From positions 1 to 38,962 of the IMG/VR virus record IMGVR_UViG_3300025828_000056: a stretch of 38,962 nucleotides of DNA, one strand, 5' to 3'. The stretch comes from a virus. Both the position numbers and the translations under genes were made by a program. The notes under the pieces were generated by a model. The model was given only the letters and a program-made list of their open reading frames with translations. It searched no databases and had not been told where the DNA came from. Within the stretch, counting starts at the first letter, position 1, and every line of letters begins with the position of its first letter. This document shows positions 3,109 through 28,700 of the stretch, piece by piece.

Positions 3109-3948
3109 TTATGGGGTAGGGAATACATCGAGAGCTCCAACCGTAGCGCTAGAGGTGGTTAGGCTTGCGTTTACAAGCCAATTGTCAAAATCAACAGCAA
3201 GCAAGTCAATAACGTCTCCGGTATTTCCACCGGTATCAGAAACGTCCGCGTCTAAGTTAATTATATTTTTAGAAGCGTTCGCAGCTAATGTTTGAACGCG
3301 AGACTGACCAGTAGCAGCATTCGAGGTCACAACAGCTTTACCGAAGAAGTAGTCACCGCTAGCAGTTAAGATGTTAACCTGACCGCCTAATATATTCTTG
3401 AGGATGATTTTAAAGTTAACACCAATCGCAGCAGGTGGAAGTGTGATGTTAAGCGTACCACTAAGATTAGTAACGTAGTATATCTTTCCTGAATCACTGC
3501 TATTCAGGGTTGTGTTGACGCTGATATTGTTTATGGTTTCATCACCCCTTCCGATAGTAATTGTATTACCAGAACGAGTGTACCCCAATCCATTTCTAGC
3601 TGAAAGAGTGATAGTTGTGCTGGAGGCATCCGCAGCTTCAATGGTAATGGTTGGAGATGTAGTACCTCCAAGAGTTGTTGTTACTGTCTCATTAGAAGGG
3701 AATGCTCTATACTCTACAGCCTTACTGGTCGAGTTCCAAACCAATGCGTTGCCACTTGTGCTTCCGCTAGTAACGGTATTAATCTCAAGGCTCTCTGCCT
3801 TGACTGTTGTGGTAGAAAGAGAAAGCGCAGATGAGTTTCCTATGCCATCTTCGATTACCTTTAATGATGTGGTGAGAGATGATGCGTCGGATGTCTTGAG
3901 CATCCCTTGGTACGTATCCTTTACTCTAGTTCCAGCAAGAGTCGCCAT
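3109..3948 (-). CDS. Tail-fibre-like structural protein
   Basis: The 279-residue product is rich in Ser, Thr, Asn, Gly and Val and poor in Lys and Cys, with short alternating beta-strand segments, the usual make-up of phage fibre shafts. The segment GTLNITLPPAAIGVNFKI (around residues 163-180) resembles a repeat seen in many appended tail-fibre and host-contact proteins of marine phages. No enzyme motif is visible. A Bacteroidota -7 box (TATATTTG) lies 16 nt upstream of its ATG, so this gene probably starts its own transcript. The role in adsorption is inferred from composition and phage context. Confidence 0.68.
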   Translation of the reverse strand: MATLAGTRVKDTYQGMLKTSDASSLTTSLKVIEDGIGNSSALSLSTTTVKAESLEINTVTSGSTSGNALVWNSTSKAVEYRAFPSNETVTTTLGGTTSPTITIEAADASSTTITLSARNGLGYTRSGNTITIGRGDETINNISVNTTLNSSDSGKIYYVTNLSGTLNITLPPAAIGVNFKIILKNILGGQVNILTASGDYFFGKAVVTSNAATGQSRVQTLAANASKNIINLDADVSDTGGNTGDVIDLLAVDFDNWLVNASLTTSSATVGALDVFPTP

Positions 3949-3964
3949 GTTCTTAAATTTACAG

Positions 3965-3972
3965 CAAATATA
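3965..3972 (-). promoter_or_regulatory. Bacteroidota-type -7 box TATATTTG
   Basis: The leftward strand reads TATATTTG, a perfect match to the TAnnTTTG consensus used by the primary sigma factor of Bacteroides and Flavobacterium. It sits 16 nt ahead of the ATG of the tail-fibre-like gene, in the 30-nt space between that gene and the divergent winged-helix gene. I see no clear TTG box at the expected upstream distance. Confidence 0.6.
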
Positions 3973-3978
3973 CAGCTA

Positions 3979-4404
3979 ATGAGTAGACACCATCCGGGTC
4001 GTCAACGCAGACAATTCAGTAAACTCAACAAACGTTACGTCAAAAAAAATGAACTTAAAAAGCTATCACTCGTTCTCCGAGACGTAAAAGCTAACTATGA
4101 TATAGGGCAAGCCGAGGTTGAATTCCTTTTGTTTGCCTACGATTACGAGTTCTTCACCGTTAACCATATAGCTAAATCCCTTGCGAAGAGCAGGAAGAAA
4201 CTGTATGAAAGGACCGTCCTCCCCTTGAAAAACAAAGGGTATGTAGAGATAGTATATCATGGAAAGGGAGTAGATTCATACATCAACGCCCTATTCAATG
4301 AGAAGGTAGGTAATGAACATAGACTGGGGTTGAGTCAGTCTGGACGCTTGCTTGTACAACGAATATACAGGAAGCTTTACGGTGACGAGCCTATTGATTT
4401 TTAA
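3979..4404 (+). CDS. Winged-helix (MarR-like) DNA-binding protein
   Basis: The product has 141 residues if started at the ATG at 3979, which is preferred over an in-frame upstream ATG because that one would run through the divergent gene. The N-terminus is basic (MSRHHPGRQRRQFSKLNK). The middle looks like a winged helix: FFTVNHIAKSLAKSRKKLYE as the helix-turn-helix, then VLPLKNKGYVEIVYHG as the wing, and SQSGRLLVQRIYRKLYG as the last helix, a MarR-like layout. It is a lone rightward gene inside a leftward block, divergent from the tail-fibre-like gene and sharing its TTAA stop with the lytic transglycosylase. It may regulate late genes; that is inference. Confidence 0.72.
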   Translation: MSRHHPGRQRRQFSKLNKRYVKKNELKKLSLVLRDVKANYDIGQAEVEFLLFAYDYEFFTVNHIAKSLAKSRKKLYERTVLPLKNKGYVEIVYHGKGVDSYINALFNEKVGNEHRLGLSQSGRLLVQRIYRKLYGDEPIDF

Positions 4405-5021: not shown

Positions 5022-5097
5022 TTTTTTCGAGTCTTATGCAATATTACGAAATTGATGAACGTTGTAAGAGCAGACAAACCTTTAAACCCCTTCCATT

Positions 5098-5553
5098 ATG
5101 AAGAACATCATTTTAATTTTCGCCCTTATCGCAAACGCAGCTTCGGCTCAGTACATGCATTTCAGAATCATTCCTGACCACGACCACAACATGTTGTCAT
5201 CTTCTGACAACGATAGTGTGGAGTGGGTTGTATTCATCGACGACCTATATGAACCATCCGAAACTCCAGACTTCAAACCGTTGCAAGAAGCAGAGTGTAT
5301 TTTTGATTCAGGCTCTACTGTCCTGAACTACAAAACATACACACTTGGTACTCACCACCTGCTGCTACGCAACAAGATTAGTGGACAGAATATCGCATAC
5401 GCAGTCCTGCATATTGACCACACTACACGAGATGTGACTAATGGAATTTGGACTATGTGGATTTTCGAGCACGATGACCCATACGCAGTATATGCGCCTA
5501 CACGAGAAAATAAGTGGGACACCCCTTACTTTACTCCGGGGCTATTGAATTAA
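5098..5553 (+). CDS. Exported protein of unknown function
   Basis: The 151-residue product starts with a clear signal peptide (MKNIILIFALIANAASAQ), cleaved probably after SAQ or just before the Q, as in many Bacteroidota exported proteins. The mature part is rich in Asp, His and aromatic residues (DHDHN, EHDDPYAVYAP) and looks beta-rich, so metal binding is possible but unproven. It is a single rightward gene between two leftward genes and shares its TTAA stop (5550-5553) with the downstream leftward gene. No TAnnTTTG box is evident in the 76 nt ahead of it. The isolated, reversed position marks it as a likely accessory (moron-type) gene. Confidence 0.7.
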   Translation: MKNIILIFALIANAASAQYMHFRIIPDHDHNMLSSSDNDSVEWVVFIDDLYEPSETPDFKPLQEAECIFDSGSTVLNYKTYTLGTHHLLLRNKISGQNIAYAVLHIDHTTRDVTNGIWTMWIFEHDDPYAVYAPTRENKWDTPYFTPGLLN

Positions 5554-9245: not shown

Positions 9246-9283
9246 CACAATAACACAAGAACGAGATACGTTATACTACTGAA
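9246..9283 (+). promoter_or_regulatory. Early promoter-like element, copy 1
   Basis: CACAATAA (9246-9253), 15 nt, CGTTATACTACTGAA (9269-9283). This copy has one base fewer than the consensus second box. It lies 17 nt ahead of the ATG at 9301 and is the most upstream copy, at the edge of the divergent control region. Confidence 0.65.
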
Positions 9284-9300
9284 CGCGATAGCTAAATAGA

Positions 9301-9717
9301 ATGTCAAACCAACCTAATACATTGAAAATGAGTGAGTTAACCAACAACAACAACGGAGTATCAGCATCTGTAGCAGTGGCTGAGAAGTCTCTGAAGAACG
9401 CCCGAGTCTTGGCTGAGACGGCTTTCGGACTGGCGAAATTCAACCTTGATTCTGTGGAGCGCGAGTTGCGTACCGCTGAGGCCTTGGCATTGTGCGACCA
9501 AACCATCGCCAACATCAAGGAGCGCATCGGCATCGCTAAGCGCGAGTTGGAAGCAAGCCGAGACGTGTTGCAGAGCATTCGCCGAGCGCACATCAACGTG
9601 AAGGCCACGATGGGTTACGGAGACCTCCAAGGCTTGCAAGACTGCCTTGAAGCAGATACGCACTTTGGAATCTTCGTTGATACCGAGAACATCGAAACTG
9701 ACTACAGCGCACAATAA
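9301..9717 (+). CDS. Helical early protein (138 aa)
   Basis: This is the first gene of the rightward early region. The product is Ala/Glu/Leu rich and largely helical, with probable coiled coil (SVERELRTAEALALCDQ, NIKERIGIAKRELEASRDVL). I know no family for it. The ATG at 9301 follows promoter-like copy 1; an in-frame ATG at 9328 would shorten it by nine residues. The gene ends ...TDYSAQ, and its CAA-TAA end is part of the first box of promoter-like copy 2. First-expressed phage genes often target host functions, but nothing specific is visible. Confidence 0.68.
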   Translation: MSNQPNTLKMSELTNNNNGVSASVAVAEKSLKNARVLAETAFGLAKFNLDSVERELRTAEALALCDQTIANIKERIGIAKRELEASRDVLQSIRRAHINVKATMGYGDLQGLQDCLEADTHFGIFVDTENIETDYSAQ

Positions 9718-9748
9718 ACAGGAAACGAAAGACGTTATCACTATAGAA
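9710..9748 (+). promoter_or_regulatory. Early promoter-like element, copy 2
   Basis: CACAATAA (9710-9717), 15 nt, CGTTATCACTATAGAA (9733-9748). The first box contains the TAA stop of the preceding gene. The end CACTATAGAA is identical to the core of the SP6 phage promoter. It lies 39 nt ahead of the ArdC-like start. Confidence 0.72.
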
Positions 9749-9751
9749 CAC

Positions 9752-9772
9752 GGGGAGGCAAAGGGTCTCCCC
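9752..9772 (+). promoter_or_regulatory. Leader hairpin before the ArdC-like gene
   Basis: GGGGAG (9752-9757) and CTCCCC (9767-9772) can pair with a 9-nt loop in the 5' leader, just after promoter-like copy 2 and 15 nt before the ATG at 9788. It could tune translation or protect the 5' end. No other early gene leader here has a similar stem. Confidence 0.4.
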
Positions 9773-9787
9773 ACAAATCCAATTCAA

Positions 9788-10702
9788 ATGAAGAAGAAAG
9801 TAGATGTTTACCAGAAAGTTACCGACCGCATCGTAGCTGGGTTGCAAACCAAAGGTCTCCAATGGTTCAAGCCATGGAGCATTAGCGGGAGCGGGTGCAT
9901 CGAGCACCCCATCAACAACGCCACAGGCCGAGCCTACACTGGCATCAATGAGCTGTTCCTCACCATCCATGGGCAGGAGCAAGGATACGAGCACAATGAG
10001 TGGCTCACCTTCAAGCAGGCTCAAGCCAAGGGAGGCAGTGTCCGCAAGGGAGAGTCAGGCACCGAGATTGTGTTCTGGAACATCGTCTTCAGGGGCGAGG
10101 ATGGCAAGTTCTACCGCAAGGTTCAGGACATCCCTCAAGGCATGGCGTTCGACAAGATTTTCAGCCCACGATTGTGGAATGTCTTCAACATCGCTCAGTG
10201 CGACGATATCGAGCCACGACGAGAGAAGGTCGAGCCTAGCGGAGACTTCAATCCCATCGAGGAGGCTGAGGCAGTGTACGCTGTCAAGTACCCTAAGAAG
10301 CATCGCCCAACGTTGGCTCACGGCGGAGCGAGCGCTTTCTACAGCCCAAGCAAGCACCATGTGCAGATGCCCAAGCCTGAGACGTTCGTCACCAACGATG
10401 ACTACTACAAGACGCTGTTCCACGAGTTGGTGCACAGCACAGGCCACGAGACCATCCTCAAGCGATTGGAGAAGGTAGCGGCATTCGGCTCCGAGGCATA
10501 CAGCAAGGAGGAGTTGGTGGCTGAGATTGGTGCTCAGTTCCTCGTAGGCCTGACAGGTATTCAGCCCAAGGACGATGAGGCCAACAGCCAAGCCTACATC
10601 AACGGATGGGTAAAGAAGCTACAGGACAAGCCGAAGATGGCTCTGTCAGCGGCAAACAAGGCTATGAAAGCCGTGAACTTCATCATGAGGGACGAGGAGT
10701 AA
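9788..10702 (+). CDS. ArdC-like anti-restriction protein with zincin domain
   Basis: The product has 304 residues and matches the ArdC family: an N-terminal ssDNA-binding domain (DVYQKVTDRIVAGLQTKGL, then NNATGRAYTGIN and KGGSVRKGESGTEIVFW) and a C-terminal zincin-like peptidase with FHELVHSTGH (HExxH) and a downstream EELVAEIGAQFL glutamate. ArdC proteins protect incoming DNA against host restriction; the peptidase domain is thought to cleave host factors in polyvalent proteins. I start at 9788 because the open frame upstream runs into the preceding gene and promoter. Early, promoter-proximal placement fits a defence-evasion role. Its GC content looks higher than in the late genes. Confidence 0.85.
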   Translation: MKKKVDVYQKVTDRIVAGLQTKGLQWFKPWSISGSGCIEHPINNATGRAYTGINELFLTIHGQEQGYEHNEWLTFKQAQAKGGSVRKGESGTEIVFWNIVFRGEDGKFYRKVQDIPQGMAFDKIFSPRLWNVFNIAQCDDIEPRREKVEPSGDFNPIEEAEAVYAVKYPKKHRPTLAHGGASAFYSPSKHHVQMPKPETFVTNDDYYKTLFHELVHSTGHETILKRLEKVAAFGSEAYSKEELVAEIGAQFLVGLTGIQPKDDEANSQAYINGWVKKLQDKPKMALSAANKAMKAVNFIMRDEE

Positions 10703-10715
10703 TCCTCCCCTCTTG

Positions 10716-10762
10716 GGGCAGGCGATGGCTCGCTTGCATCAGGTTCGATTCCTGACTGCCCA
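10716..10762 (+). ncRNA. Mini tRNA-like structure (47 nt)
   Basis: The sequence just after the ArdC-like gene folds like a shortened tRNA. GGGCAG (10716-10721) pairs with CTGCCC (10756-10761) as an acceptor stem, followed by A, CA. A canonical T-arm (TCAGG, loop TTCGATT, CCTGA; 10739-10755) abuts the acceptor directly as in real tRNA. In place of D- and anticodon arms there is one 4-bp hairpin (GCGA, TGGC, TCGC; 10722-10733). An overlapping alternative hairpin exists (CCTCCCC at 10704 with GGGGcAGG). It may be a tRNA mimic, a processing signal or a tRNA remnant. No anticodon is identifiable. Confidence 0.45.
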
Positions 10763-10792
10763 CAAAGCGTTAACAGATTTTTACAAGTAGGA

Positions 10793-10830
10793 CACAATAA
10801 ACCCAAAACTAAATCCGTTCTACTATCAAA
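10793..10830 (+). promoter_or_regulatory. Early promoter-like element, copy 3
   Basis: CACAATAA (10793-10800), 15 nt, CGTTCTACTATCAAA (10816-10830), one base short in the second box. It lies 10 nt ahead of the ATG at 10841. A GTTAAC palindrome lies about 18 nt further upstream. Confidence 0.62.
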
Positions 10831-10840
10831 CACAGACACT

Positions 10841-11077
10841 ATGAAAGGATACCCATGCACCCCAATCGAGTACGCGAGCCGCCCCTACAAGGGAGTTATC
10901 AACCTGAACGAGGCATTCGTGGCCACCATCCAGTTCTACACAGGTAAGGGCTACACAGGGCTGTTCGATGTGACTAACAGGTTCAACAACCAAGCGCACA
11001 TGGACAACTACATCAACCTGATGTGCCGTAAGAAGGGATGGAGTCTCGATGAAGTATGGATGCTTCGCAACATCTAA
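10841..11077 (+). CDS. Small early protein (78 aa)
   Basis: I do not recognise this product. It is a compact alpha/beta protein with several aromatic residues (YPCTPIEYASRPYKGVI; FVATIQFYTGKGYTG) and a C-terminal helix ending KKGWSLDEVWMLRNI. There is no membrane segment or known motif. It is a single-gene unit between promoter-like copies 3 and 4. Its own promoter and the early location suggest a host-takeover or accessory role, without further support. Confidence 0.66.
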   Translation: MKGYPCTPIEYASRPYKGVINLNEAFVATIQFYTGKGYTGLFDVTNRFNNQAHMDNYINLMCRKKGWSLDEVWMLRNI

Positions 11078-11093
11078 AAAAAATCAGTCCGCG

Positions 11094-11132
11094 CACAATA
11101 ACAAGAAACTCTTCTGCGTTATTACTATAGAA
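11094..11132 (+). promoter_or_regulatory. Early promoter-like element, copy 4
   Basis: CACAATAA (11094-11101), 15 nt, CGTTATTACTATAGAA (11117-11132), which I take as the consensus copy. It lies 20 nt ahead of the ATG at 11153. Confidence 0.75.
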
Positions 11133-11152
11133 GCCACTAAAAGAAAAGAAAT

Positions 11153-11446
11153 ATGGGACAGAAAGCAATTCAAATAGACACAATGACCTGCGGACAGCAG
11201 TTCCTCCCTGCAATCTTCAACGGAGACGTTGAGTGCCTGAGCGCACACGAAGAGTTCCTCTTGGAGCGTGAGATTGGGTGGTACAACGCGCAGGGAGAGG
11301 AGGACTATCCAGACTTCGTCAGCATCGAGTTCGAGTGCACCTCAAGCGAGCGACACATCTGCGGATGTGACTTGACGGGACTCCTTAGTGAGTGCGTAGA
11401 GGTGAAGGTCTTCGTGTACCTCAACGAGAACTACGTGAAAGATTAA
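11153..11446 (+). CDS. Small acidic early protein (97 aa)
   Basis: I do not recognise this product. It is acidic, with six cysteines (MTCGQQF; EFECTSSERHICGCDLTG; LSECVEV), enough for a small metal site, though the spacing fits no zinc-finger class I know. The middle (HEEFLLEREIGWYNAQGEED) is probably helical. It is a single-gene unit behind promoter-like copy 4, followed by copy 5. Confidence 0.65.
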   Translation: MGQKAIQIDTMTCGQQFLPAIFNGDVECLSAHEEFLLEREIGWYNAQGEEDYPDFVSIEFECTSSERHICGCDLTGLLSECVEVKVFVYLNENYVKD

Positions 11447-11465
11447 CAGCCGTTAACAAACCAAG

Positions 11466-11503
11466 CACAATAACAGCAAACCTGCCGCGTTATTACTAAA
11501 GAA
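11466..11503 (+). promoter_or_regulatory. Early promoter-like element, copy 5
   Basis: CACAATAA (11466-11473), 14 nt, CGTTATTACTAAAGAA (11488-11503). GTTAAC lies 8 nt upstream of the first box, as at copy 7. The next ATG is at 11531. Confidence 0.7.
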
Positions 11504-11530
11504 AGCAGTTCAATTTAATCCTTTTACATT

Positions 11531-12742
11531 ATGCAAGACAACGCATTGACACCCCAAGCCAAAGAAGTAATCCGCAATGCCGCGCGATTCGCAACGAACC
11601 TTGAGAACCACCAGTACGGCATCCGTCGGCGAATCCTCAACAAATACATCGAGGACACGTCAGATTCCATGGGGCGTATCAAGCACGACTACAACTACGT
11701 GCAGACTCCTGAGTTCAAGATGGCATTTAGCAAGGTCATCATGAAGGTCATCCCAGCCGAACTCTACGATGCCTGCAAGCAGTTCGCTGAACTCGCACCT
11801 GTAGACAACTGGGGCTACCTCACCGACGAGGCATCCGATGTCATCCGTGAGTTCAACAAGGACAGGCGTTACAGCGAGACGGTTAGCGAGTACCGCTTGA
11901 AGGACATGGTCGAGGAGGTTATGAACCCAAGGCTCGACAACAGCATAGCTCGTGAGTATATGGAGAATCAGGCCAAGAGCATGAAGCGAGCTACTTACCT
12001 CAAGAAGGTCAAGGAGGGTGACCCGCTCCGCGCAGGCTTGTCCGACGAGCAGACGTGCTACGAGTTCACGGATGCTATGTTCGACAATCACACCGACGTG
12101 TTCAGCGACGTTCTGTTCATCGGTCACCAACTCCGAGTTGTGAAGAACTCAGATGGCAACTACGATATCGAGAAGCTGAACGGCAAGTGGGTATACATCT
12201 CATCCCGTGAAACCTTGACCGAGTGCATCTTCGAGTTGGCTGATGCGCTACGATACATCGAGAGGTACGCTGTTGATAGTGCTGTCCAAAACTCCGAGCG
12301 AGGCTTGCCAATCCAAGACAGTCGATTCACTGCCGACGAGGTACGACAGCTCGCCGAGGCACGAGGCATCGTGTTGCCCGAGCAGAAGACTTTCTCGGTC
12401 ATCAAGACCAAGTCTTGGAAGTCTGTTGAGTCTGTGACCTGTGAGTCTGTGACCGAGCGCACAGATGTGGTCAAGGTCATCGCCGCAGGCCTCACCTTCG
12501 AGCAGGCGGACAAGCTGCGCGAGGCTCTCAACCTGACCGAGCACAAGGCAACCGTTCTCGAACGTGCCAAGCGTCGTCAGAAGAGCGCGGAGGAATCCCT
12601 CAAGGCCGCCAAGGAGGAAGTTTCCGAGGCAATGACAGCTTACCTCAGGTCAGTCCAAGGTGTCGCAGAAGTGCGCAAGGCCGCTGGTCTCGACCCTGAA
12701 GTGAACGTTGAGACAGAAGAAAAAGTGGAGGTAGCACAATAA
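11531..12742 (+). CDS. Early protein of unknown function (403 aa)
   Basis: This is the largest gene of the repeated-promoter region. I do not recognise a family. The N-terminal 200 residues are helical and charged. Residues about 200-230 (VLFIGHQLRVVKNSDGNYD, KLNGKWVYISS) look like a small beta domain. The C-terminal 100 residues are a long helix or coiled coil (RAKRRQKSAEESLKAAKEEV). The gene ends ...KVEVAQ, and the CAA-TAA end is part of the first box of promoter-like copy 6. Codon choice leans to G/C-ending codons compared with the late genes, as in the ArdC-like gene. An interaction or DNA-binding role is possible but not shown. Confidence 0.68.
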   Translation: MQDNALTPQAKEVIRNAARFATNLENHQYGIRRRILNKYIEDTSDSMGRIKHDYNYVQTPEFKMAFSKVIMKVIPAELYDACKQFAELAPVDNWGYLTDEASDVIREFNKDRRYSETVSEYRLKDMVEEVMNPRLDNSIAREYMENQAKSMKRATYLKKVKEGDPLRAGLSDEQTCYEFTDAMFDNHTDVFSDVLFIGHQLRVVKNSDGNYDIEKLNGKWVYISSRETLTECIFELADALRYIERYAVDSAVQNSERGLPIQDSRFTADEVRQLAEARGIVLPEQKTFSVIKTKSWKSVESVTCESVTERTDVVKVIAAGLTFEQADKLREALNLTEHKATVLERAKRRQKSAEESLKAAKEEVSEAMTAYLRSVQGVAEVRKAAGLDPEVNVETEEKVEVAQ

Positions 12743-12773
12743 GTGCTACTTCCTCACCGTTATAACTGTAGAA
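12735..12773 (+). promoter_or_regulatory. Early promoter-like element, copy 6
   Basis: CACAATAA (12735-12742), 15 nt, CGTTATAACTGTAGAA (12758-12773). The first box contains the stop codon of the 403-residue gene. It lies 21 nt ahead of the ATG at 12795. Confidence 0.7.
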
Positions 12774-12794
12774 ACCTTTAAAACCTTATCAATT

Positions 12795-13289
12795 ATGGGA
12801 TTAGATATGTTTTTGTACCGAGTGCACAACGTGCGCAATTGGGGTGGAGCAAACGAGAACTCATCCAACAAGAAGCAGTACGCTGTCGGGGTTGAGTTAA
12901 ACTACAAGCCGGTACCATTCATTGGTAGCATCGGAGAGATTCACGAGATTACCGAGGAGGTCATGTGCTGGAGGAAGGCGAACGCTATTCACAAGTGGTT
13001 TGTTGATAACGTTCAAGACGGAGAGGATGACTGCCGAAGTGCATACGTCTCCCTCGATAAGATTCAGGAGCTACGAACCCTGTGTCTGTCAGTGTTGCTT
13101 AACCGAGAGCGAGCACCTGAGTTGCTACCATGCGTGGAAGGGTTCTTCTTCGGAGGGACAGAGTACGATGAGTACTACTTCGAAGACCTTGAGAACACGG
13201 CCAAGGTGATAGAGAAGATAGTGAATGATGCTATCAAGGCGAAGCAACAGAAGCATTCAATGTACCTAGAATACAGGTCGTCATGGTAG
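12795..13289 (+). CDS. Conserved phage/bacterial protein of the MGLDM family
   Basis: The 164-residue product has a recognisable pattern that I recall from many phage and bacterial proteins without known function: MGLDMFLYRV at the start, then MCWRKANAIHKWFVDNVQDG with EDDCRSAYVS, and GFFFGGTEYDEYYFEDLENT near the end. The conserved Trp, Arg, His, Asp and Cys residues suggest an active or binding site, but I know of no tested activity. It has its own promoter-like element (copy 6), and its end overlaps a small open frame at 13283. Confidence 0.78.
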   Translation: MGLDMFLYRVHNVRNWGGANENSSNKKQYAVGVELNYKPVPFIGSIGEIHEITEEVMCWRKANAIHKWFVDNVQDGEDDCRSAYVSLDKIQELRTLCLSVLLNRERAPELLPCVEGFFFGGTEYDEYYFEDLENTAKVIEKIVNDAIKAKQQKHSMYLEYRSSW

Positions 13290-13426
13290 TAGATAGAGAG
13301 CGATATATGATGGAGTTGTGGAGCGCGATTGTGTCTCCCTCTCCCTCGCTCCCCGACTACGTAACTGAATGCAGATGCTTGGACTTCGAGGTAAAGCTGA
13401 GCCTCGGATGGCCTGACCCTCGTTAA
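13283..13426 (+). CDS. Possible small protein (47 aa)
   Basis: An open frame from the ATG at 13283 overlaps the end of the previous gene by 7 nt and stops at TAA 13424-13426, 19 nt before promoter-like copy 7. The product starts MVVDRERYMMELWSAIVS and ends CRCLDFEVKLSLGWPDPR. The tight overlap and the way it fills the gap argue for a gene, but length and lack of a family make it tentative. Without it, this 210-nt stretch would be the longest untranslated gap of the early region apart from the mini tRNA-like area. Confidence 0.45.
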   Translation: MVVDRERYMMELWSAIVSPSPSLPDYVTECRCLDFEVKLSLGWPDPR

Positions 13427-13445
13427 CATCGGTTAACAATCTCAG

Positions 13446-13483
13446 CACAATAAACAGAAACCCGTGGCGTTAATACTATAGAA
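13446..13483 (+). promoter_or_regulatory. Early promoter-like element, copy 7
   Basis: CACAATAA (13446-13453), 14 nt, CGTTAATACTATAGAA (13468-13483). Two GTTAAC sites lie just upstream, the nearer one 8 nt from the first box. The next ATG is at 13503. Confidence 0.73.
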
Positions 13484-13502
13484 CCCACATAATTTAATTC
13501 AC

Positions 13503-13718
13503 ATGAGCAAACCAATGGAACTTACCACATCGATAATGATGTACGAAAACGGAGAGATAAATGAGGTCAACGATGTACTTGAGCTGTTCTCAGCACTCAT
13601 CAAGACAGGGTTGGCTTGGCAACTCCAAGGCTTCTTCGGAAGGACTGCCCGACACCTGATTGACATCAATGCAATCGCCGAAGACGGCACAATAATTTAC
13701 GAAGAGCTGCCGTTCTAA
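13503..13718 (+). CDS. Conserved small phage protein (71 aa)
   Basis: The product resembles short phage proteins I recall with the pattern ...LFxxLIxTGxAWQLQGxxGRTAxxLI...; here it reads LELFSALIKTGLAWQLQGFF, then GRTARHLID. Function is unknown. The last 10 codons overlap promoter-like copy 8 completely, so the protein end (DGTIIYEELPF) and the promoter share the same bases. It has its own promoter-like element (copy 7). Confidence 0.74.
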   Translation: MSKPMELTTSIMMYENGEINEVNDVLELFSALIKTGLAWQLQGFFGRTARHLIDINAIAEDGTIIYEELPF

Positions 13719-13726
13719 CTATAGAA
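13688..13726 (+). promoter_or_regulatory. Early promoter-like element, copy 8 (inside a coding end)
   Basis: CACAATAA (13688-13695), 15 nt, CGTTCTAACTATAGAA (13711-13726). The element starts inside the preceding gene, whose TAA stop lies within the second box. It lies 21 nt ahead of the ATG at 13748. Confidence 0.7.
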
Positions 13727-13747
13727 ACACCACAAAAACAATTCACC

Positions 13748-14041
13748 ATGAGCTACGAATCATTTAAGAACAAAGAGACATGGCTACTCAATGTGTGGGG
13801 ATACCTAGACGAGATTGCCAACGAGTGGATAGAGACAGAGAAGCCGACAGGAGCAAAGCCTATGAGCATCTCAGCTGACTACTGCCTAGAGTCATTCACT
13901 TGGATGGTAGACCACACCTTGAAGAAGCTACCCAATGGAATCATAGCTGACTTCGTTAACGATAGTATCAGCACCATTGATTGGAGGGAGGTTGCCGAGA
14001 GCGTCAAGGACATTGTAATAGAGCAGGAGAATGACAGTTGA
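13748..14041 (+). CDS. Small early protein (97 aa), NKETW type
   Basis: The start MSYESFKNKETWLLNVWGYL resembles short phage and plasmid proteins with an N(R/K)ETWNVxLW motif near the N-terminus and a WxEIAExV motif near the end; here the latter is STIDWREVAESVKDIV. No function is known to me. The product is acidic and helical. It is the first gene behind promoter-like copy 8 and overlaps the next gene by 11 nt. Confidence 0.7.
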   Translation: MSYESFKNKETWLLNVWGYLDEIANEWIETEKPTGAKPMSISADYCLESFTWMVDHTLKKLPNGIIADFVNDSISTIDWREVAESVKDIVIEQENDS

Positions 14042-14243
14042 GGAGCTAAAGAAAAAGTACCTGATAGGGTACCACACATCGGTAGTACAGATAGACTGTA
14101 TCGCAATGCTTGATAAGGATTGGATAAAGCTATTCACCGATTCATTGGACGAGTGTCCGCAGCGTAAAGGCGTAGTCCTAGACTGTATAGAGTACAAGTT
14201 TAATGAGCTGACCCAGAAAAAAAATTCGGACACAGCACAATAA
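14031..14243 (+). CDS. Small early protein (70 aa)
   Basis: I do not recognise this product. It is a helical protein (MTVEELKKKYLIGYHTS; GVVLDCIEYKFNELTQ) with no membrane segment. It overlaps the preceding gene by 11 nt, so it is probably translated from the same mRNA. It ends ...SDTAQ, and the CAA-TAA end is part of the first box of promoter-like copy 9. Confidence 0.63.
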   Translation: MTVEELKKKYLIGYHTSVVQIDCIAMLDKDWIKLFTDSLDECPQRKGVVLDCIEYKFNELTQKKNSDTAQ

Positions 14244-14274
14244 ACAGAAACCAAAGACCGTTAAGTAGTTGTAA
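14236..14274 (+). promoter_or_regulatory. Early promoter-like element, copy 9 (degenerate)
   Basis: CACAATAA (14236-14243, holding the stop of the preceding gene), 15 nt, then CGTTAAGTAGTTGTAA (14259-14274), which keeps CGTTA but has lost ACTATAG. It lies 16 nt ahead of the ATG at 14291. It is the last copy; genes further right are not preceded by it. Confidence 0.5.
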
Positions 14275-14290
14275 TCAAAATCAAGTAAAC

Positions 14291-14518
14291 ATGAGTAAAG
14301 AAAACAATCGAGGCTTCAGCCTCAGCGCAAACGCAGGAACCAAGTCAGGAGTTCTGCAAATCGAAGTGGGCAACACCATCCTATCAGTGACAACCATCAA
14401 CGGAGTGAACGAGATGGTAGTGTTCAGCAAGGATAGCAATGACACCATCACTGAGCGCAAGGCAGTGACAGACTTTAGTGATGTCATCCACATGATATGG
14501 AACCTAGAAAGACTTTGA
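14291..14518 (+). CDS. Small early protein (75 aa)
   Basis: I do not recognise this product. It is beta-rich (SGVLQIEVGNTILSVTTING, VNEMVVFSKDSND), with a polar start and a C-terminal helix (FSDVIHMIWNLERL). It lies behind the degenerate promoter-like copy 9 and is followed after 3 nt by a 29-residue membrane peptide. Confidence 0.62.
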   Translation: MSKENNRGFSLSANAGTKSGVLQIEVGNTILSVTTINGVNEMVVFSKDSNDTITERKAVTDFSDVIHMIWNLERL

Positions 14519-17008: not shown

Positions 17009-17082
17009 GCTCTCGTAGCTCAGGTGGATAGAGCATCTGCCTTCTAAGCAGACGGTCACAGGTTCGAATCCTGTCGGGAGTA
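17009..17082 (+). tRNA. tRNA-Arg (anticodon UCU)
   Basis: This 74-nt cloverleaf is complete. Acceptor GCTCTCG (17009-17015) pairs with CGGGAGT (17075-17081; two G-T pairs). D-arm GCTC/GAGC. Anticodon stem TCTGC/GCAGA with loop CTTCTAA, anticodon TCT. T-arm ACAGG, TTCGAAT, CCTGT. Discriminator A. The CCA end is not encoded. It reads AGA/AGG codons and may supplement the host supply. It sits directly after the terminator, so it probably has its own promoter or depends on read-through. Confidence 0.93.
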
Positions 17083-17145
17083 CACTACCACCACATGGGA
17101 TAGTAAAACTTTACCTTGTCGGGTGAGGTGGGGTATCCAGCCATA

Positions 17146-20866: not shown

Positions 20867-21434
20867 CAAAGCGATAGGCGATGCCATCGAAAAGGCTTGG
20901 GGTCAGTTCGTGCTCAACACCTACCCTGTCTCTGAGGTAACCTTCAGTTCCGGAAATGTTCCCGGCTGGGATTTAAAGTTAACGTCTGAAGAGGGGCGGG
21001 CTAAGTTCCATGAAGTAAAGTTCGACCAGTCTTCTGCTGCCCCATGGCTGAACTACAAAGGTGAGCAGCGCAGACCAACAGGTAATCTGTTCATTGAGTA
21101 CAAGAACCCTAAGATGGGCAGGCCTAGCGGCATAATGGTGACACGTTCTGACTGGTGGATTTACATAGTCAAGCAAGCCTACGAGTTGGTCACATTACAG
21201 GACGTGAACAAGTACAAAGCAAAGGCTTACATCATTCATGCCCAGCAGCTCAAAGATTTTTTGAATGGTGAGCACAATTTAAGGTCGGTTCCTACCGTTA
21301 GGGATACAGTTAACGGAAGGGTGAATGCAGAGGGCTGGCTTTTACCCATCCACACACTGAAGTCTTCTGGAATTCTGTTCTATGAAGAGGACTTTACTTC
21401 GTATATTAGAGCCCTTTTTTCTTCCACCCTTTAA
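20847..21434 (+). CDS. PD-(D/E)XK-type endonuclease-like protein
   Basis: The 195-residue product has a nuclease-like core: NVPGWDLKLTSEEGRAKFHE and VKFDQSS give D...(20)...E-x-K, followed by TGNLFIEYKNP and MGRPSGIMVTRSDWWIYIV. This pattern of D, E-x-K, then FIE and GxPSGI is known to me from phage proteins annotated as endonucleases or restriction-like nucleases. A role in recombination, repair or host DNA breakdown is likely, but the substrate is unknown. Its end lies 10 nt before the reductase start at 21445. Confidence 0.72.
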   Translation: MSTVENDKAIGDAIEKAWGQFVLNTYPVSEVTFSSGNVPGWDLKLTSEEGRAKFHEVKFDQSSAAPWLNYKGEQRRPTGNLFIEYKNPKMGRPSGIMVTRSDWWIYIVKQAYELVTLQDVNKYKAKAYIIHAQQLKDFLNGEHNLRSVPTVRDTVNGRVNAEGWLLPIHTLKSSGILFYEEDFTSYIRALFSSTL

Positions 21435-21444
21435 ACCATTTTAC

Positions 21445-23349
21445 ATGGATAATCAGCAGTTGGTGGACTCCATTCCGTGGGGTCCAGTAGGATACGTCAC
21501 CTATAAAAGAACGTACTCACGTCAGTTAAACAGTAAGCGCAGCGAGGAATGGCCTGACACGGTAGAGCGTGTGGTCAACGCATGCAGCAAGCAGTTAAAG
21601 GTAGGCTTTACTCCTGAAGAGGAGCAGGAACTCAGAGATATTATGATGAATCTCAAGGGTACTGTAGCCGGTAGATTCCTTTGGCAGCTAGGGACAAAGA
21701 CAGTTGACCGTCTTGGCCTACCATCCCTACAGAACTGCGCCTTTGTTGTTGTTGATTCCCCAATCCGTCCGTTCACATGGGCATTCGAAATGCTTATGCT
21801 TGGGAGTGGCGTTGGATTCAATATCCAAAGAGAGAATGTTTATCAACTCCCGAAGGTTAAAAAGAAAAAGATTAAATTAGTTAGGAACGATGAAAACGAT
21901 GCAGACTTTATCGTACCTGACTCAAGAGAAGGATGGGTTGAATTGCTTAAGCGAACACTCGAAGCCAGCTTTGAAACTGGTGAGGGATTTAGCTTCGCTA
22001 CTCACCTCGTCAGACCAGCTGGAGCTCCTATCAAAGGTTTTGGCGGAACGGCAAGCGGGGCGGAAGACCTAGTCAAAGGAATCATGAGCATCAATGAGGT
22101 GCTCAACGGAAGAGCAGGTCAGAGATTAAGACCCGTTGATTGTCTTGACATCATGAACATCATCGGAAGCATTGTTGTTGCCGGTAACGTAAGACGCTCA
22201 GCACAGATTGCATTAGGTGACCACGATGATATCGAGTACCTGCGTGCAAAGCGTTGGGACTTGGGCAGTATTCCCAACTGGAGAGCGATGTCAAACAACA
22301 GTGTAGTCTGTGATGATGTCGGTATGTTACCAGATGAATTCTGGGAAGGATACAAAGGCAATGGCGAGCCTTACGGTCTGATTAATCTAGAGTCGTCTCG
22401 CAGGATGGGACGAACAGGAGAAACCCAGTACCCCGACCCAGACGTGCAAGGATACAACCCTTGTGCTGAGCAATCACTTGCGAACTTTGAGACTTGCTGC
22501 TTGGCTGAAATCTATCTGCCGAATATTGAATCAAAGGAAGAACTATTAAAGGTTGCAAAGTATCTTTATAGAATCAATAAGCATAGCTTGGCAATCAAGT
22601 GTGCGGTTAAAGAAACTGAGGACATCGTTCACAGAAACATGCGAATGGGAATCGGGGTGACTGGATATCTACAGGCTACCGAAGAACAAAGAAGCTGGCT
22701 CGGTGAGGTGTACTCAAAACTCAGAGAATTCGATGTCGAGTATTCAAGAACTAGAGGATTTCCAGAATCAATTAAGCTCACGACGGTCAAGCCCAGTGGC
22801 ACGCTGTCTCTACTTGCTGGTGTTACACCGGGAGCTCACCCCGGATATTCAGAATACTTCATTAGACGAATTAGAATGGCTTCAGGTAGTGACCTTGTAC
22901 AAGCTTGCAGGGACAGAGGCTATCGCATAGAGTATGTCAAGAATTTTGATGGCACTGAAGACCACGGGACAGTTGTTGTAGAGTTCCCTTGCAAATTCCC
23001 AGAGGGTACTATGTACGCAAAGGACATGACTGCTATCGACCAGCTCAAAGTGATTAAGCGCCTTCAGCAAGAGTGGAGCGACAACAGCGTATCTGTTACT
23101 ATCTACTACAGAAAAGAGGAGCTCGATGATATCAAGTCTTGGCTAGCGCTGGACTACTTCAACATGAAGTCAGTTAGTTTCCTGCTCCACAATGAGCATG
23201 GGTTTGCTCAGGCTCCGTTCGAGGAGATTACAAAAGAGTTATACGATGAGATGTCATCAAAGGTTACACCAATCACCAACCTAGGTGTGCTTGACATGGC
23301 CGACATTGACATTCAAGATTGTGACACCGGAGCATGCCCAGTACGATGA
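21445..23349 (+). CDS. nrdJ: Adenosylcobalamin-dependent (class II) ribonucleotide reductase
   Basis: The enzyme reduces ribonucleotides to deoxyribonucleotides using a B12-derived radical, supplying DNA precursors in the infected cell. The start at 21445 is preferred over 21382 because the longer form would overlap the nuclease gene. The 634-residue product has the cysteines of the monomeric Lactobacillus-type enzyme: SLQNCAF (first redox Cys), YNPCAEQSL (radical Cys), FETCCLAEIYLP (second redox Cys, with the NPC-to-ETC spacing of 11), and a C-terminal CDTGACPVR with C-x4-C for thioredoxin exchange. It is somewhat shorter than the roughly 740-residue Lactobacillus protein. The loop TVKPSGTLSLLAGVTPGAHP is also typical. 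Confidence 0.92.
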   Translation: MDNQQLVDSIPWGPVGYVTYKRTYSRQLNSKRSEEWPDTVERVVNACSKQLKVGFTPEEEQELRDIMMNLKGTVAGRFLWQLGTKTVDRLGLPSLQNCAFVVVDSPIRPFTWAFEMLMLGSGVGFNIQRENVYQLPKVKKKKIKLVRNDENDADFIVPDSREGWVELLKRTLEASFETGEGFSFATHLVRPAGAPIKGFGGTASGAEDLVKGIMSINEVLNGRAGQRLRPVDCLDIMNIIGSIVVAGNVRRSAQIALGDHDDIEYLRAKRWDLGSIPNWRAMSNNSVVCDDVGMLPDEFWEGYKGNGEPYGLINLESSRRMGRTGETQYPDPDVQGYNPCAEQSLANFETCCLAEIYLPNIESKEELLKVAKYLYRINKHSLAIKCAVKETEDIVHRNMRMGIGVTGYLQATEEQRSWLGEVYSKLREFDVEYSRTRGFPESIKLTTVKPSGTLSLLAGVTPGAHPGYSEYFIRRIRMASGSDLVQACRDRGYRIEYVKNFDGTEDHGTVVVEFPCKFPEGTMYAKDMTAIDQLKVIKRLQQEWSDNSVSVTIYYRKEELDDIKSWLALDYFNMKSVSFLLHNEHGFAQAPFEEITKELYDEMSSKVTPITNLGVLDMADIDIQDCDTGACPVR

Positions 23350-23654: not shown

Positions 23655-23680
23655 GCTGGGTGAGCCAGCTTTATTATCTT
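23655..23680 (+). terminator. Rho-independent terminator (first of two)
   Basis: GCTGG (23655-23659), loop GTGAG, CCAGC (23665-23669), then TTTATTATCTT. It lies 15 nt after the last rightward stop, at the convergence with the late leftward unit. The stem is short, so this one is probably leaky. Confidence 0.6.
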
Positions 23681-24843
23681 GGTACTGTTACACCGGCTTG
23701 ATGCAGGAGTTTCATTACCTTACGGAGACCCTCGCCCCTCAAGGCGGGGGTTTCTTCTTCCCTGTAAAATGGGTCTAGCTCTGCACTGGCGCATACCGTC
23801 CCCCAGTACTGAAGCACTTGCTGGAAGTCTGTCACTGTGAAATACCCATCTCCATTCACATCTCCTTGCTCCCAGTCCAACTCTCCCCAATGCTCCATCA
23901 TGAGCAACAAGTCATTCGTACCCACAACAAAGTCACCACTTACGTCTCCGTAACACACGGGGTCTTCAGTTGGGTCGGTTAGGCCGGGCCGAAATACAGG
24001 CAGCACAGCGTGGGCACGCTGTATCTGACCGGGAGTAAAGTTTGTTCTACATGAATCCACATAATAGTCCATGTGATTGTTGGGTGTGTAGTCGTATAGT
24101 CCCGGTGGGCATATCGGATTCTCGCAACTCCAGTTCACCTTCGTTGGAGGGGTGTCGCATACGCCGTCGCCAGTTTCTTCACATGGTCCAAGGTCTTGGC
24201 CGCAATATTCCACGTCATTAAACACATGGTGCAGCCCAACGTAATGACCTACCTCGTGTATGAATGTCTTGTTCTCCATCCGTGTAGGCAGGGTAAGCTG
24301 TTCTCCAAACCTCCCGAACACATTTGTTCTGACCCAAACCCCCTCCATGTCTGTTGCCGCCGTGTAAGACAGCCATGCAAATCCAAGTATTCCAGAGCAG
24401 AACTGCGGGAAGATGTGTACGTTCATGTATTGAGTTCTATCCCAAACGATAGGAGATATGTACTCGTTCATTTGATACCAGCCAAATCCACTGTAGGGGA
24501 CACAAGTGTAGTAAGGTTGTAGTAGTTGCGGGGCTGTCTCCCACTCATCAAAGTCGTGGTACTCAATTGCCGCGAGTGAGAAGTTTATCATCACCTCCTC
24601 AAACTCTTCAATGAGGTGGTCATGCGCATCATAGATTACGTCCTCTGAAACATAGCTATCGGGGAAGCTGTCCGTGTGGTGTACGTGAACTACGTAGTTT
24701 ATAGTCTTCCAGAATACTGGGTTGTCATCAAACAATCCCATCGCTAAAACTACTGGTTGCTCATTACCGAAAACAGCACACGAGTCTTGAGCCGACACAT
24801 TAAATGTGATGGTTGCAATAACCAAGGCAATCAGCTGCCTCAT
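23674..24843 (-). CDS. Exported M43 (pappalysin-like) metalloprotease with dockerin-like repeats
   Basis: The product has 389 residues. MRQLIALVIATITFNVSAQ is a signal peptide. The catalytic part holds FIHEVGHYVGLHHVF (zinc motif HExxHxxGxxH, His196/His200/His206), then GDGVCDTPPT and NNHMDYYVDSCRTNFTPGQI, the Met-turn region of M43 peptidases, with several cysteines for disulfides. Residues about 298-350 hold two dockerin-type, EF-hand-like repeats (YGDVSGDFVVGTNDLLLMME; GDVNGDGYFTVTDFQQVLQY), which bind calcium and in cellulosomes mediate attachment. It lies last in the late unit after holin-like and DUF5675-type genes (ATGA overlap with the holin-like stop). It may attack host-surface proteins or polymers at lysis. 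Phage origin of such a protease is unusual. Confidence 0.82.
   Translation of the reverse strand: MRQLIALVIATITFNVSAQDSCAVFGNEQPVVLAMGLFDDNPVFWKTINYVVHVHHTDSFPDSYVSEDVIYDAHDHLIEEFEEVMINFSLAAIEYHDFDEWETAPQLLQPYYTCVPYSGFGWYQMNEYISPIVWDRTQYMNVHIFPQFCSGILGFAWLSYTAATDMEGVWVRTNVFGRFGEQLTLPTRMENKTFIHEVGHYVGLHHVFNDVEYCGQDLGPCEETGDGVCDTPPTKVNWSCENPICPPGLYDYTPNNHMDYYVDSCRTNFTPGQIQRAHAVLPVFRPGLTDPTEDPVCYGDVSGDFVVGTNDLLLMMEHWGELDWEQGDVNGDGYFTVTDFQQVLQYWGTVCASAELDPFYREEETPALRGEGLRKVMKLLHQAGVTVPR
23729..23760 (+). terminator. Rho-independent terminator inside the protease gene (second of two)
   Basis: CCCTCGCC (23729-23736), loop CCTCAA, GGCGGGGG (23743-23750), then TTTCTTCTTC: an 8-bp stem with one T-G pair. 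It acts on rightward transcripts although it lies within the C-terminal codons of the leftward metalloprotease. Together with the first terminator it would shield the late genes from antisense transcription. Confidence 0.65.
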
Positions 24844-25274: not shown

Positions 25275-25734
25275 CGTAATCTATGTATGTAATTGTAACC
25301 TCGTCACCACAGTCGAGCGCTTCTGAAATTGTTTTATATATCCTTTTGTATGCATTGACTGAGCTACCAACGAACCCATCTGATTGAATGTTTTCCGTTT
25401 GTGTGTCTCCTACAAGTAGGCATCCACTTGTGTCATCATCATCGTTGCCTGCATGGATTAAGATGTATTCAAAGTTGGGCACGTTTCTAACCCATAGCAT
25501 TCCCTTATGCGTGTCTGGAAATCTTTTCGAGTACTTAGAATGAAACCCACCTACAGTGCGAAATGTAATGTCGTATGTGCCAGCTGGTATTCTGGTTTCA
25601 TGCATTACCTTTTTCTCTCTGTACTCATCCTCTAAGGTGTAGCACATAAACTTGCGGTCACCATCCGTGATATCAAAAAGCAGTCCGAGCGTGCTGTCCT
25701 TCTGACTGCTAAATCTAAGTACTTCTAATCTCAT
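25255..25734 (-). CDS. DUF5675-type protein of the lysis region
   Basis: The product has 159 residues. The pattern IPAGTYDITFRTVGGFHSKY, then KGMLWVRNVPNFEYILIHAG and DDDTSGCLLVGDTQTEN is the hallmark of DUF5675 proteins. The conserved His in ILIHAGN and the Cys in GCLLVG have the spacing seen in L,D-transpeptidase-like folds, so action on the peptidoglycan is plausible; the reaction is not established to my knowledge. There is no signal peptide. Position next to the holin-like gene supports a role in lysis. It overlaps the giant gene by 4 nt. Confidence 0.82.
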   Translation of the reverse strand: MRLEVLRFSSQKDSTLGLLFDITDGDRKFMCYTLEDEYREKKVMHETRIPAGTYDITFRTVGGFHSKYSKRFPDTHKGMLWVRNVPNFEYILIHAGNDDDDTSGCLLVGDTQTENIQSDGFVGSSVNAYKRIYKTISEALDCGDEVTITYIDYDGTEED

Positions 25735-28700
25735 TCTTCTTTCGATTCAATGTATTGACCCTCAGTGTAAAACGCAGGCCTAACAAGAGCAAGATACATA
25801 TCAGTGTAAGTCTTGAATTCAATGTATTCTTCTGGGCTCATAGTCTGTCTCTTACTTCTCATGAATGCGTAGTAATCCCTTGCGTTCTTGAGTTGCATTG
25901 GAAGCTTGCGCACCTCCCTGATATACTTTCTGTGCTGGTCTGGATACTGTTCCTCCATGTTCTTCTCAGCAACAATCGGCTTGATGCTTGACTTGAATGA
26001 GTTGACTGCTCGAACTTTATCGAATGGGTTGTCAGCTTTCGCTGCGATTTCTCTCAGCCTGTCCTCACCTTCGCCCTCGCCTAGTGTTCTTCCATACTTC
26101 TCTGCAATTGATTCATACGCAGCTAATGCCTCTTCGTTAGACAGTCTTCTGTCTTTAGGTAGGTTGTCCATATCCCTGACCAGTACATCAATCTCTTTAC
26201 TGGACAAGCCTGCAACCTGACCTGCAGTCAAGAAAATCTTGAGGTAGTAATGCATCATCATAGCCTCCTTGTCCTCTGGCCTTACGTAAAACTCCGTCCC
26301 TGTACTACTAACAACTTTGTTTTCAGGCATGGACAGATTATGGATTGTAGTTCTGGCATCATCAATGAAGTCCCCGTATGGCCCCATGAATCTGAGTAAG
26401 CCTTGCGTTGCATCCTTTGGTGCCCCCTTGTAATACAGTGGCACACCTTTATTTAACCTAGTCCACCTTTCATACCCGTCATCATCACCAAGATTAAAGT
26501 CACCTTCCCTCATTACATCTGTTGGGTACCATAGATATCTATTTAATGTTGATTGAATCTGCTTGTCAAAGACTCCAAGCGGTGGAAGCGGCTGGGCATC
26601 GACAATTACCTGTGTTGCAATTTGCCTCCACGCATTGTCCTTTGGAAGTTCATCTTCATCGTCACCTCTAAGCATCGCCGAAATTGCCGGAATCAAAACC
26701 TTACCCACATACGAGAACAGTGTAAGCTCCGCAGCGTGGCCAAGCATAGCTATGCTACCTTCCTTCTTGGCTTGCGCATCACCATACAATATGCGCATGA
26801 AGTCAGATGAAATGCTACGCTTTTTGTTCACGGCAAACCTAGAGAATGGGAGTAGGACATTCTGCGCCAAATAAGTGACAACTGCTTTTGACCCTTTCTC
26901 TTGCTGGTACAAGTCAGCAGCCTCTCTCGGTGTTGATGCGGCTTGGTCTTTATTAACCATCATATCTGCATAACTCAGCGCAATCTCATTTGGGTTTGCC
27001 GCCTCAGCATCCCAGTCAATTTCATCGAAGCTTTCGATAGCTCCTTCTGTCATCAAGGCATCGCCATAGAACGTAAACCAAGAGGCAACAGCAGCTACCT
27101 TATCGGTACCCTTCAAGTTCTTTAGGCTGATGTCGCTGAGCTTTCTTACAATCTCCTGCAGCTTGCCTTCATCCAAGCTCATTCTTCCGGTGTATGGGTC
27201 AATGTTGCCTGCCTCGTAATCCCTCTGGAATACAGGTGAGTTCTGCAACAACTTATACCTACCATCATCCAATGCTAACTTGCTGTCCTCTCTGGCTAAA
27301 GTTCTTAATGAGAACACAGCCATTTCGGATACAGTTTTAATCAGGTACGGAATTGATTGAATCGGATTATTTGTTTGGAACATAACCGACGTAAGAACTG
27401 TACTCTGTTTGAGGGTCTGAATTCCAAAGCTTCCAAAAGCTTTTACGATTACCGCATTCCTTAAAAGGTTTACTGGGTTCATGAACTTAACTCCTCTGAC
27501 CCTGAATGTAGGCTGGAATACTGGCGGAACTTTTCCCGTGTCCTGCTGAACATACAACATCATCTTTCTTTCAAGCTCCTTCCTAGCCTTAGCGTCCACA
27601 ATAAAGTTTTTCATTGCGTCGCTGTTCATAACGTAGTTCGCAGCAACCACATCACCAACGGTGTTAGACAATATGATGTTGTCCCTTAGCGTTCTCTCAT
27701 TAATTGAAAGGAAGTCAAGTCCAATTCGATTCTTTCCCTTGAGAGAGCGAGGGTTTCTTTCGAATGAACTACCAGCAACTTTTTTTGTATGAGATAGAGA
27801 TGAGCTAGCTAACGCTTCACTAATGGATACCCTCATCCGAATCAAATCATCTACGTTTCTAGCTCCGGTCTCTGGGATTACCTCGAACGCAGTGTAGTTA
27901 TCTTCTAGTTCTAGCTCCTTCCCAAGATATCTTTCCACGTAATTTCTAAACTGAGGCATGAGGCTGCTGTGGATGTCAGACATATAGTCAACCAGCCCAG
28001 TAATGTCAGACCTTTCCGACTCAACCCTTTGAATCATTTCAGGTAATGTTTCGGCTGCACCGAACAGGTAATTGAACGCATCTTCAAACTCATCAATCTC
28101 ATTCTGCTCAAAAGTCTTTTGCTCTACGTAGTAGTCGATACTTCTTCGCATAGCATTCCTTAGCTCGATATACCAAGCAGCTTCAGCACCTCCTTTCTCT
28201 CCTTCGAATTTGGGCAATTGCCTAGCCATAGAATACATCTGAGCAATAGCTCTGTCAGCCCTTGTCTTCACACTGCCGCCTTCACTTTCTATCCTGTCAA
28301 TCTCAGACTCAAGCATCTCCACTATCTGAGTATGAATGAAGTCAGCCTTAGCAAAGTTTGTAGTCATGGCGGACAAGCCGAAAGCAACTCTGAGTTTTGC
28401 AGTTGTAATCCTGTCGGCTGGAATTAAGTTCTGGATATAGGAATTGATAGTATCCAGTGGCCCCGACAATACACCAGACCTAGACTTTAAGTTCTTAGAC
28501 CGAACTAGTTTTGAAAGCGCGTTCGGCATGTCAATGTTTCCCTTGACTAGGGCGTGCATGTAACCGATACCATAAACCGAATCGTTTACAACGTAGTCGT
28601 CAAGCCGGTAATCAAGATTGATGATGTGATGCCGCTTAAGCTTTTGCAATCTGAGCGCAAGCTTATTCACGTCGAACTCCCCTTCGTTATACAAGCCTAG

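Follow-up and report, generated by a model that had tools for sequence, protein, structure and literature searches.

A repeated two-box element ahead of early genes, predicted to be a clade-specific promoter, in a group of phages

The two-box element and the genes that it precedes

The window analyzed here is the whole 38,962-nucleotide (nt) stretch of the IMG/VR virus record IMGVR_UViG_3300025828_000056. It contains nine copies of a two-box element comprised of CACAATAA, a spacer of 14 or 15 nt, and CGTT, all on the + strand and all positioned before early genes, where the label "early" is assigned by gene content (ArdC antirestriction and replication genes) and strand rather than by timing. 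A sequence-only reading had listed nine + strand copies with a perfect first box, and a pattern scan recovered every one of them at the same positions. With the spacer left free (CACAATAA-N12-18-CGTT), the whole window yields nine forward, no reverse, and no backward-control matches. The first box by itself occurs 11 times against 1.4 expected (an approximately eightfold excess), the remaining two occurrences (27597 and 38782) lacking CGTT; the random occurrence elsewhere that the earlier reading had held out as evidence against itself is thus not seen, the pattern CACAATAA-N-CGTT being found nowhere else in the window. The second box fared less uniformly: CGTT is present in all nine copies, but the remainder resembles CGTTATTACTATAGAA only loosely, with at most three mismatches in six of the nine, and in the copies at 9246, 10793, and 14236 the letters after the retained CGTT diverge. 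The elements, each 38-39 nt long, do lie ahead of start codons, though at a distance of 9-39 nt from the ATG in place of the 10-39 nt originally given.

Copy 1 (9246-9284, spacer 15) precedes the gene at 9301-9717, the stop of which is formed by box 1 of copy 2 (9710-9748, spacer 15). The latter is followed by a gene (9788-10702, +) coding for an ArdC-like antirestriction protein of 304 amino acids, whose orthologue in a relative (L021:14391-15317) matches the ArdcN and MPTase-PolyVal domains. Between copy 2 and the ArdC start lies a leader hairpin (GGGGAG..CTCCCC, 9750-9773, +), the arms of which change jointly in relatives (GAGGGGG..CCCCCTC), as read off the sequences without statistics. Copy 3 (10793-10831, spacer 15), with TTAACA-N4-TTTACA upstream, precedes the gene at 10841-11077. 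Two copies of the hairpin type discussed below come next, namely copy 4 (11094-11132, spacer 15), ahead of the gene at 11153-11446, and copy 5 (11466-11503, spacer 14; AATAAC, GCA/TGC, GTTATT), ahead of the gene at 11531-12742 and itself preceded by a tandem TTAACA-N4-TTAACA (11443-11458, +). Copy 6 (12735-12773, spacer 15) supplies the stop of that gene with its box 1 and precedes the gene at 12795-13289. A second TTAACA-N4-TTAACA tandem (13424-13439, +) lies upstream of copy 7 (13446-13483, spacer 14), which precedes the gene at 13503-13718; copy 8 (13688-13726, spacer 15) overlaps the end of the latter gene and precedes the one at 13748-14041. Finally, copy 9 (14236-14274, spacer 15) precedes the gene at 14291-14518, its box 1 furnishing the stop of the gene at 14031-14243. 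In each of the copies at 9710, 12735, and 14236, the shared stop codon is the TAA of CACAATAA.

A profile of 75 non-redundant copies from the window and its relatives, in which perfect CACAATA and CGTT are present by construction of the search, delineates the remaining anatomy; unselected box variants do occur (GACAATAT, TACAATAT, TGCAATAT, CGCAATAA). Box 1 takes the form (G)CACAATA[A/T] with the G conserved at -1, the middle of the spacer is A-rich, and box 2 is CGTT, after which come a ACTATAGAAAC-like stretch and a short A-rich leader to the ATG; counted from the first letter of CGTT, ATAGAAAC-like letters are conserved at 10-18 nt. The two spacer lengths, 14 and 15 nt, are nearly even in number (36:39). 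The 14-15 nt spacing of the sequence-only reading was borne out in ten related records, where spacers of 11-18 nt were permitted and all 62 matches nevertheless had exactly 14 or 15 nt; the spacing is hence a result and not built into the search. Just upstream of box 1, many copies have tandem TT[ACT]ACA repeats 10 bp apart: of the 75 copies, 16 have the motif starting at -23 and 21 have it starting at -13 (downstream, about 0.12 per position). We considered whether these pairs are inverted repeats, which the TTAACATCCGTTAA copies would fit; however, since TTAACA..TTCACA and TTAACA..TTTACA preserve only the direct repeat, we take them to be direct. They resemble the B. subtilis PhoP box, a likeness for which a literature search gave no support. 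Downstream, an ATG-led open reading frame (ORF) lies within 80 nt in 71 of the 75 copies, as against 615 of 1500 random positions. The distance from CGTT to the ATG clusters at 25-43 nt (mode 34-36), with a longer group near 55 nt that includes the ArdC leaders with their hairpin.

The sequence-only reading had suggested a weight-matrix scan of the phage and its relatives. With a matrix trained on 61 copies, the lineage of the window being left out, the nine window copies rank first at 25.7-49.7 bits (in order along the strand: 30.0, 44.7, 32.3, 49.7, 42.0, 32.8, 48.3, 40.7, and 25.7), against a maximum of 10.2 in 20 randomized windows, and the element is also carried by relatives. The matrix additionally points to a degenerate tenth copy (TGCAATAT..CGTT; 5037-5076, +; 14.9 bits), which stands ahead of a rightward gene (5098-5553) that lies isolated within the leftward late arm. 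Counterparts on the + strand inside the leftward arm are found in three relatives, G003 (1349), G008 (28346), and G009 (11335), with higher scores of 35.3, 34.5, and 24.8 bits. In the window, G003, and G009, this copy lies immediately ahead of the isolated gene; the ORF annotated in G008 starts later, and the leader there differs. A minus-strand match at 7902 (21 bits) was discounted: it overlaps a start codon, and the minus strands of relatives have no comparable match.

Hairpin copies and distribution among relatives

The copies with a C after box 1 together with CGTTAT form a distinct subclass, in which the spacer hairpin has a mean score of 8.07 versus 3.09 in shuffled sequences (0/2000), whereas the other 55 copies pair no better than shuffles (p 0.74). 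A hairpin with compensating changes is seen in 18 of the 75 copies and is missing in 57. The outer arms coincide with the promoter boxes (AATAAC/GTTATT), which are nearly invariant and hence uninformative on pairing, while the inner arms covary in two registers, one with GCA/TGC, GAC/GTC, and GGG/CCC, and the other with AGGA/TCCT and CCAGA/TCTGG. Because the arms differ among copies of one genome with pairing retained, a protein dyad is a poor explanation, and a folded strand, either RNA or single-stranded DNA, accounts better for these copies. A stop codon lies 16-25 nt upstream in 10 of the 18 hairpin copies, as against approximately 5 of the 51 linear copies that have an ORF upstream; the hairpin is probably the 3'-end RNA hairpin of the gene immediately upstream. 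If so, the doubling of promoter boxes as hairpin arms around covarying inner arms would be an unusual economy. No match to the element was found in Rfam.

Exact-pattern scans and a primase-based search recovered at least 20 further viral contigs in which the same element stands ahead of early genes. Its carriers form an uncultured family of Bacteroidota phages, and it is still conserved in the main other lineages, which share approximately 70% DNA identity with the window. One relative, G008, has a 123-bp terminal repeat, is taken as complete, and has one more copy in the replication region, at 46941. Across 80 primase loci, the element is present at primase identities of approximately 60% or more, save in short contigs lacking the early region; in the sister clade at 54-58% it was not seen, except for one isolated match in L105. 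The same or a near-identical element precedes different genes in different relatives. By terminase, the neighbors are the Flavobacterium elemo phages, Cellulophaga phages, and the Manatee Spring podovirus MW202828. None of 50,697 phage records matches the early block at the DNA level, the strict form of the element pattern, the one form scanned there, is absent from 84,980 species genomes, and no host was identified via genome contigs. If our reading is right, the element would mark the early regulon of a phage group without an isolate among the records searched, and would provide a ready consensus for locating its early genes.

The sister clade (L107, L123, L127, L129) instead displays an early element of its own, also repeated, GTATATATACTCTCT - gaacgtagtga - AGAGAGTATATATAC, in which changes compensate one another, and a CAAACTTCAA leader between the element and the ATG (L107: 1222-1275 and 3262-3315; L123: 552-605, 1701-1754, and 2775-2828; likewise in L127 and L129). 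It is comparable in being repeated, on the + strand, before early genes, and equipped with a covarying hairpin, and its TATAC..ACC end is similar to TATAGAAACC; it differs in its GAACGTAGTGA loop and AGAGAG/CTCTCT arms, with up to three copies found per contig. In MW202828 (L133), a palindrome, GTGTCGTTAACGACAC, occurs in 16 perfect copies confined to the rightward early region (43745-50000; also L136, 740-5169), about half of them shortly before start codons and the others inside genes. Clade-specific repeated elements before early genes may thus be general in this phage group. The tandem TT[ACT]ACA repeats, the covarying hairpin subclass, and the hairpin element of the sister clade are new here.

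A predicted early promoter and its candidate readers

The primary promoters of Bacteroidota have a -7 element with the consensus TAHHTTTG, located 4-5 nt ahead of the start site, and in F. johnsoniae the mean leader length is 33 nt (PMC6847099). On the + strand of 9246-14291 there is no TAHHTTTG, the only matches on that strand of the window being at 5298, 18037, and 32757. On the leftward strand, TATATTTG -7 boxes recur at homologous places in four phages, from a few to approximately 50 nt before start codons; one such host-type box (3965-3972, -) precedes the leftward gene at 3109-3948, is kept in three relatives, and belongs to the contrasting class and not to the element. The earlier observation that the early genes lack the host-type box, while the leftward late genes possess it, is accordingly upheld. 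Two promoter classes, early and late, are supported by the lack of TAHHTTTG in the early element together with the conserved late-strand TATATTTG; going by its letters, the early element would not be recognized by the host primary sigma factor. Also supported is the regulon-like, non-random character of a signal confined to early-type genes.

We consider it probable that the element is a clade-specific early promoter, acting as the core promoter for a class of early genes set apart from the rest, with one element serving each gene or small gene group. Transcription would start on or close to the TATAG in the 3' part, giving a leader of approximately 20-25 nt; box 1 would then occupy roughly -36 to -29 and CGTT roughly -13 to -10. 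Such a geometry would suit a two-domain contact, either sigma-like or activator-plus-polymerase; given that spacers of 14 and 15 nt occur at 36:39, two separate contacts fit better than one rigid polymerase footprint. As to the reader, the sigma-like distance between the boxes, the one-base freedom, and the optional tandem repeats upstream lead us to favor the host polymerase acting with a factor other than the primary sigma, although we would give this part of the proposal roughly even chances. The host core RNA polymerase might be recruited by a phage activator, by a factor delivered with the virion, or by an alternative sigma of the host. The late genes would be served by host-type TATATTTG promoters, and in about a quarter of the copies the promoter boxes would also serve as hairpin arms. 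If this holds, a phage with no recognizable polymerase or sigma factor bypasses the host primary sigma early and leaves its late genes to it.

For the activator, a candidate by position and conservation is a winged-helix-like DNA-binding protein of 141 amino acids (3979-4404, +), which is conserved in relatives and related to the "repressor protein" of MW202828 (27% over 119 amino acids). Several points weigh against the promoter proposal as a whole. The redirecting factor is hypothetical, no sigma factor having been found in the phage records; the winged-helix regulator is tied to the element by conservation and position only; a plain promoter leaves the hairpin subclass unexplained; and the replication genes beyond 14.5 kb, which lack copies in the window, would rely on read-through.

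The sequence-only reading had proposed an early regulon read by a different sigma factor, a modified host polymerase, or a phage polymerase. Its regulon stands as a signal, whereas searches of the phage records for a sigma factor or a polymerase recovered none. The sigma domains PF04542 and PF08281 had no match at E ≤ 1 in G000, G002, G003, G008, and G009, and the multisubunit RNA polymerase (RNA_pol_Rpb1_2) had none in the phage records, with controls matching in both cases; PF00940 (T7-like RNA polymerase) had no match in ten records, but control genomes likewise gave none, leaving that search without a working control. Even in the terminally redundant and apparently complete G008, neither a sigma factor nor an RNA polymerase was found.

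These results bear on the possibility that a virion-delivered phage RNA polymerase of the N4 or crAss-like kind reads the element, with the hairpin copies as its recognizable form and the late genes left to the host polymerase. The attraction of this explanation, which we regard as unlikely, lies in a protein of 3,313 amino acids (25731-35672, -), conserved in all relatives in the virion arm, and in the covarying hairpins of some copies and the strongly hairpin-bearing early element of the sister clade; the 3' part of the element also resembles a T7/SP6-type initiation sequence. A precedent is phage N4, which relies on hairpin promoters and a virion polymerase of 3,500 residues and transcribes its late genes with the host polymerase (PMC12633501). 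However, apart from the negative polymerase and sigma searches, the first of which had no working control for the T7-like type, the giant protein has no polymerase relative among Pfam, PHROG, or PDB profiles, a motif search over 17 homologues showed no polymerase motif to be conserved, and AlphaFold models of two segments (12-sequence alignments; mean pLDDT, the predicted local distance difference test, of 60 and 57, i.e., low confidence) found no significant PDB match with Foldseek. It contains a metallopeptidase-like HEAYH motif, its size and place are similar to those of giant structural proteins found in elemo phages and in MW202828, and in BFVD its center matches polyvalent phage proteins (ART-PolyVal, PcfJ, lysozyme-bearing). 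It thus looks like a polyvalent ejection protein, and a polymerase within it is unlikely. Moreover, the hairpin is missing in 57 of the 75 copies, and the spacer is variable in length. Another long shot is that the reader might be an initiation protein of an unrecognized kind, outside the known sigma and polymerase families and possibly delivered with the genome, in an early strategy of hairpin-capable, clade-differing repeats ahead of each early gene, common to these phages, the sister clade, and the Manatee Spring relative.

Somewhat more doubtful still is the explanation that the element is an RNA signal, i.e., a processing site or intergenic stabilizer of a polycistronic early mRNA comparable to the T7 RNase III sites. 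The intergenic location, the 18 copies with compensating hairpins, mostly just past a stop codon, and the hairpins before early genes in the sister clade would agree with it, but most copies have no hairpin signal and nevertheless keep both boxes. The leftward-arm copy speaks against a pure processing signal, because an isolated counter-oriented gene needs its own promoter; further, the 14/15-nt spacing and tandem upstream repeats resemble protein-DNA contacts, no TAHHTTTG is available to start a polycistronic early transcript, and Rfam offers no relative. It is very improbable that the copies serve as recombination or cassette sites, or as replication iterons, and lie between early genes by chance, for even if the occurrence of nearly the same element ahead of different genes in different relatives would suit such sites, the single orientation, near-fixed distance to the ATG, overlap with coding ends, and restriction to genes of one direction do not.

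Certain other features of the window were noted alongside. Between the ArdC gene and copy 3, positions 10715-10765 are tRNA-like: the ends resemble an acceptor and a T arm is present, while an anticodon arm is not evident (no ARAGORN call). A T-arm-like stretch, CTCGGTTCGATTCCGAGG, lies near 17322, and a tRNA-Arg (TCT) gene at 17009-17083 is present in most of the relatives examined. A gene at 23674-24843 (-), adjoining the holin gene, codes for a secreted-looking M43/reprolysin metallopeptidase with a dockerin-like domain, and one at 21382-23349 (+) for a 655-amino-acid protein that is ribonucleotide reductase-like by eye.

Comparison with known promoter systems

The predicted promoter shares with the Bacteroidota primary-sigma promoter (-33 TTTG, -7 TAHHTTTG) a short A-rich leader without a Shine-Dalgarno sequence; its box 1 lies roughly at the -33 location, and the TACTATAG part agrees with TAnnTTTG at four of six positions (TA..T.G). 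It differs in the invariant CGTT and CACAATA, which are foreign to that class, and without TAHHTTTG it cannot be placed there. With phage N4 (Schitoviridae) it has in common that the early genes are few and have a private promoter, that late promoters are of the host type, and that there are a giant structural-arm protein and some hairpins. The differences are the hairpin in only about a quarter of the copies, as against every early promoter in the N4 type, the flexible spacer, six to nine copies versus the three of N4, and the lack of a detected polymerase; on account of the first and the last of these, we do not file the element as N4-type. A T7-like promoter would be rigid and continuous over approximately 23 bp, whereas the conserved span here is approximately 40 bp with spacers of 14 and 15 nt near equal in number. 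T7-type RNase III sites would show a hairpin at every site, whereas most copies here pair no better than shuffles.

A regulon under a phage-encoded sigma factor would entail a sigma gene in the phage, and none was found in the five records searched. Promoters of extracytoplasmic function (ECF)-type sigma factors consist of GGAAC, 16-17 bp, and a CGTT-like -10; the element is similar in having CGTT as a -10-type core at a comparable spacing from an upstream box, but lacks GGAAC, and the phage searches gave no sigma factor. In the middle promoters of the T4 MotA type, a box near -30 replaces the -35 contact of the host polymerase, with a -10-like region at a fixed distance. While the sequences are unrelated and the activator here is only a candidate, the layout of the element is alike.

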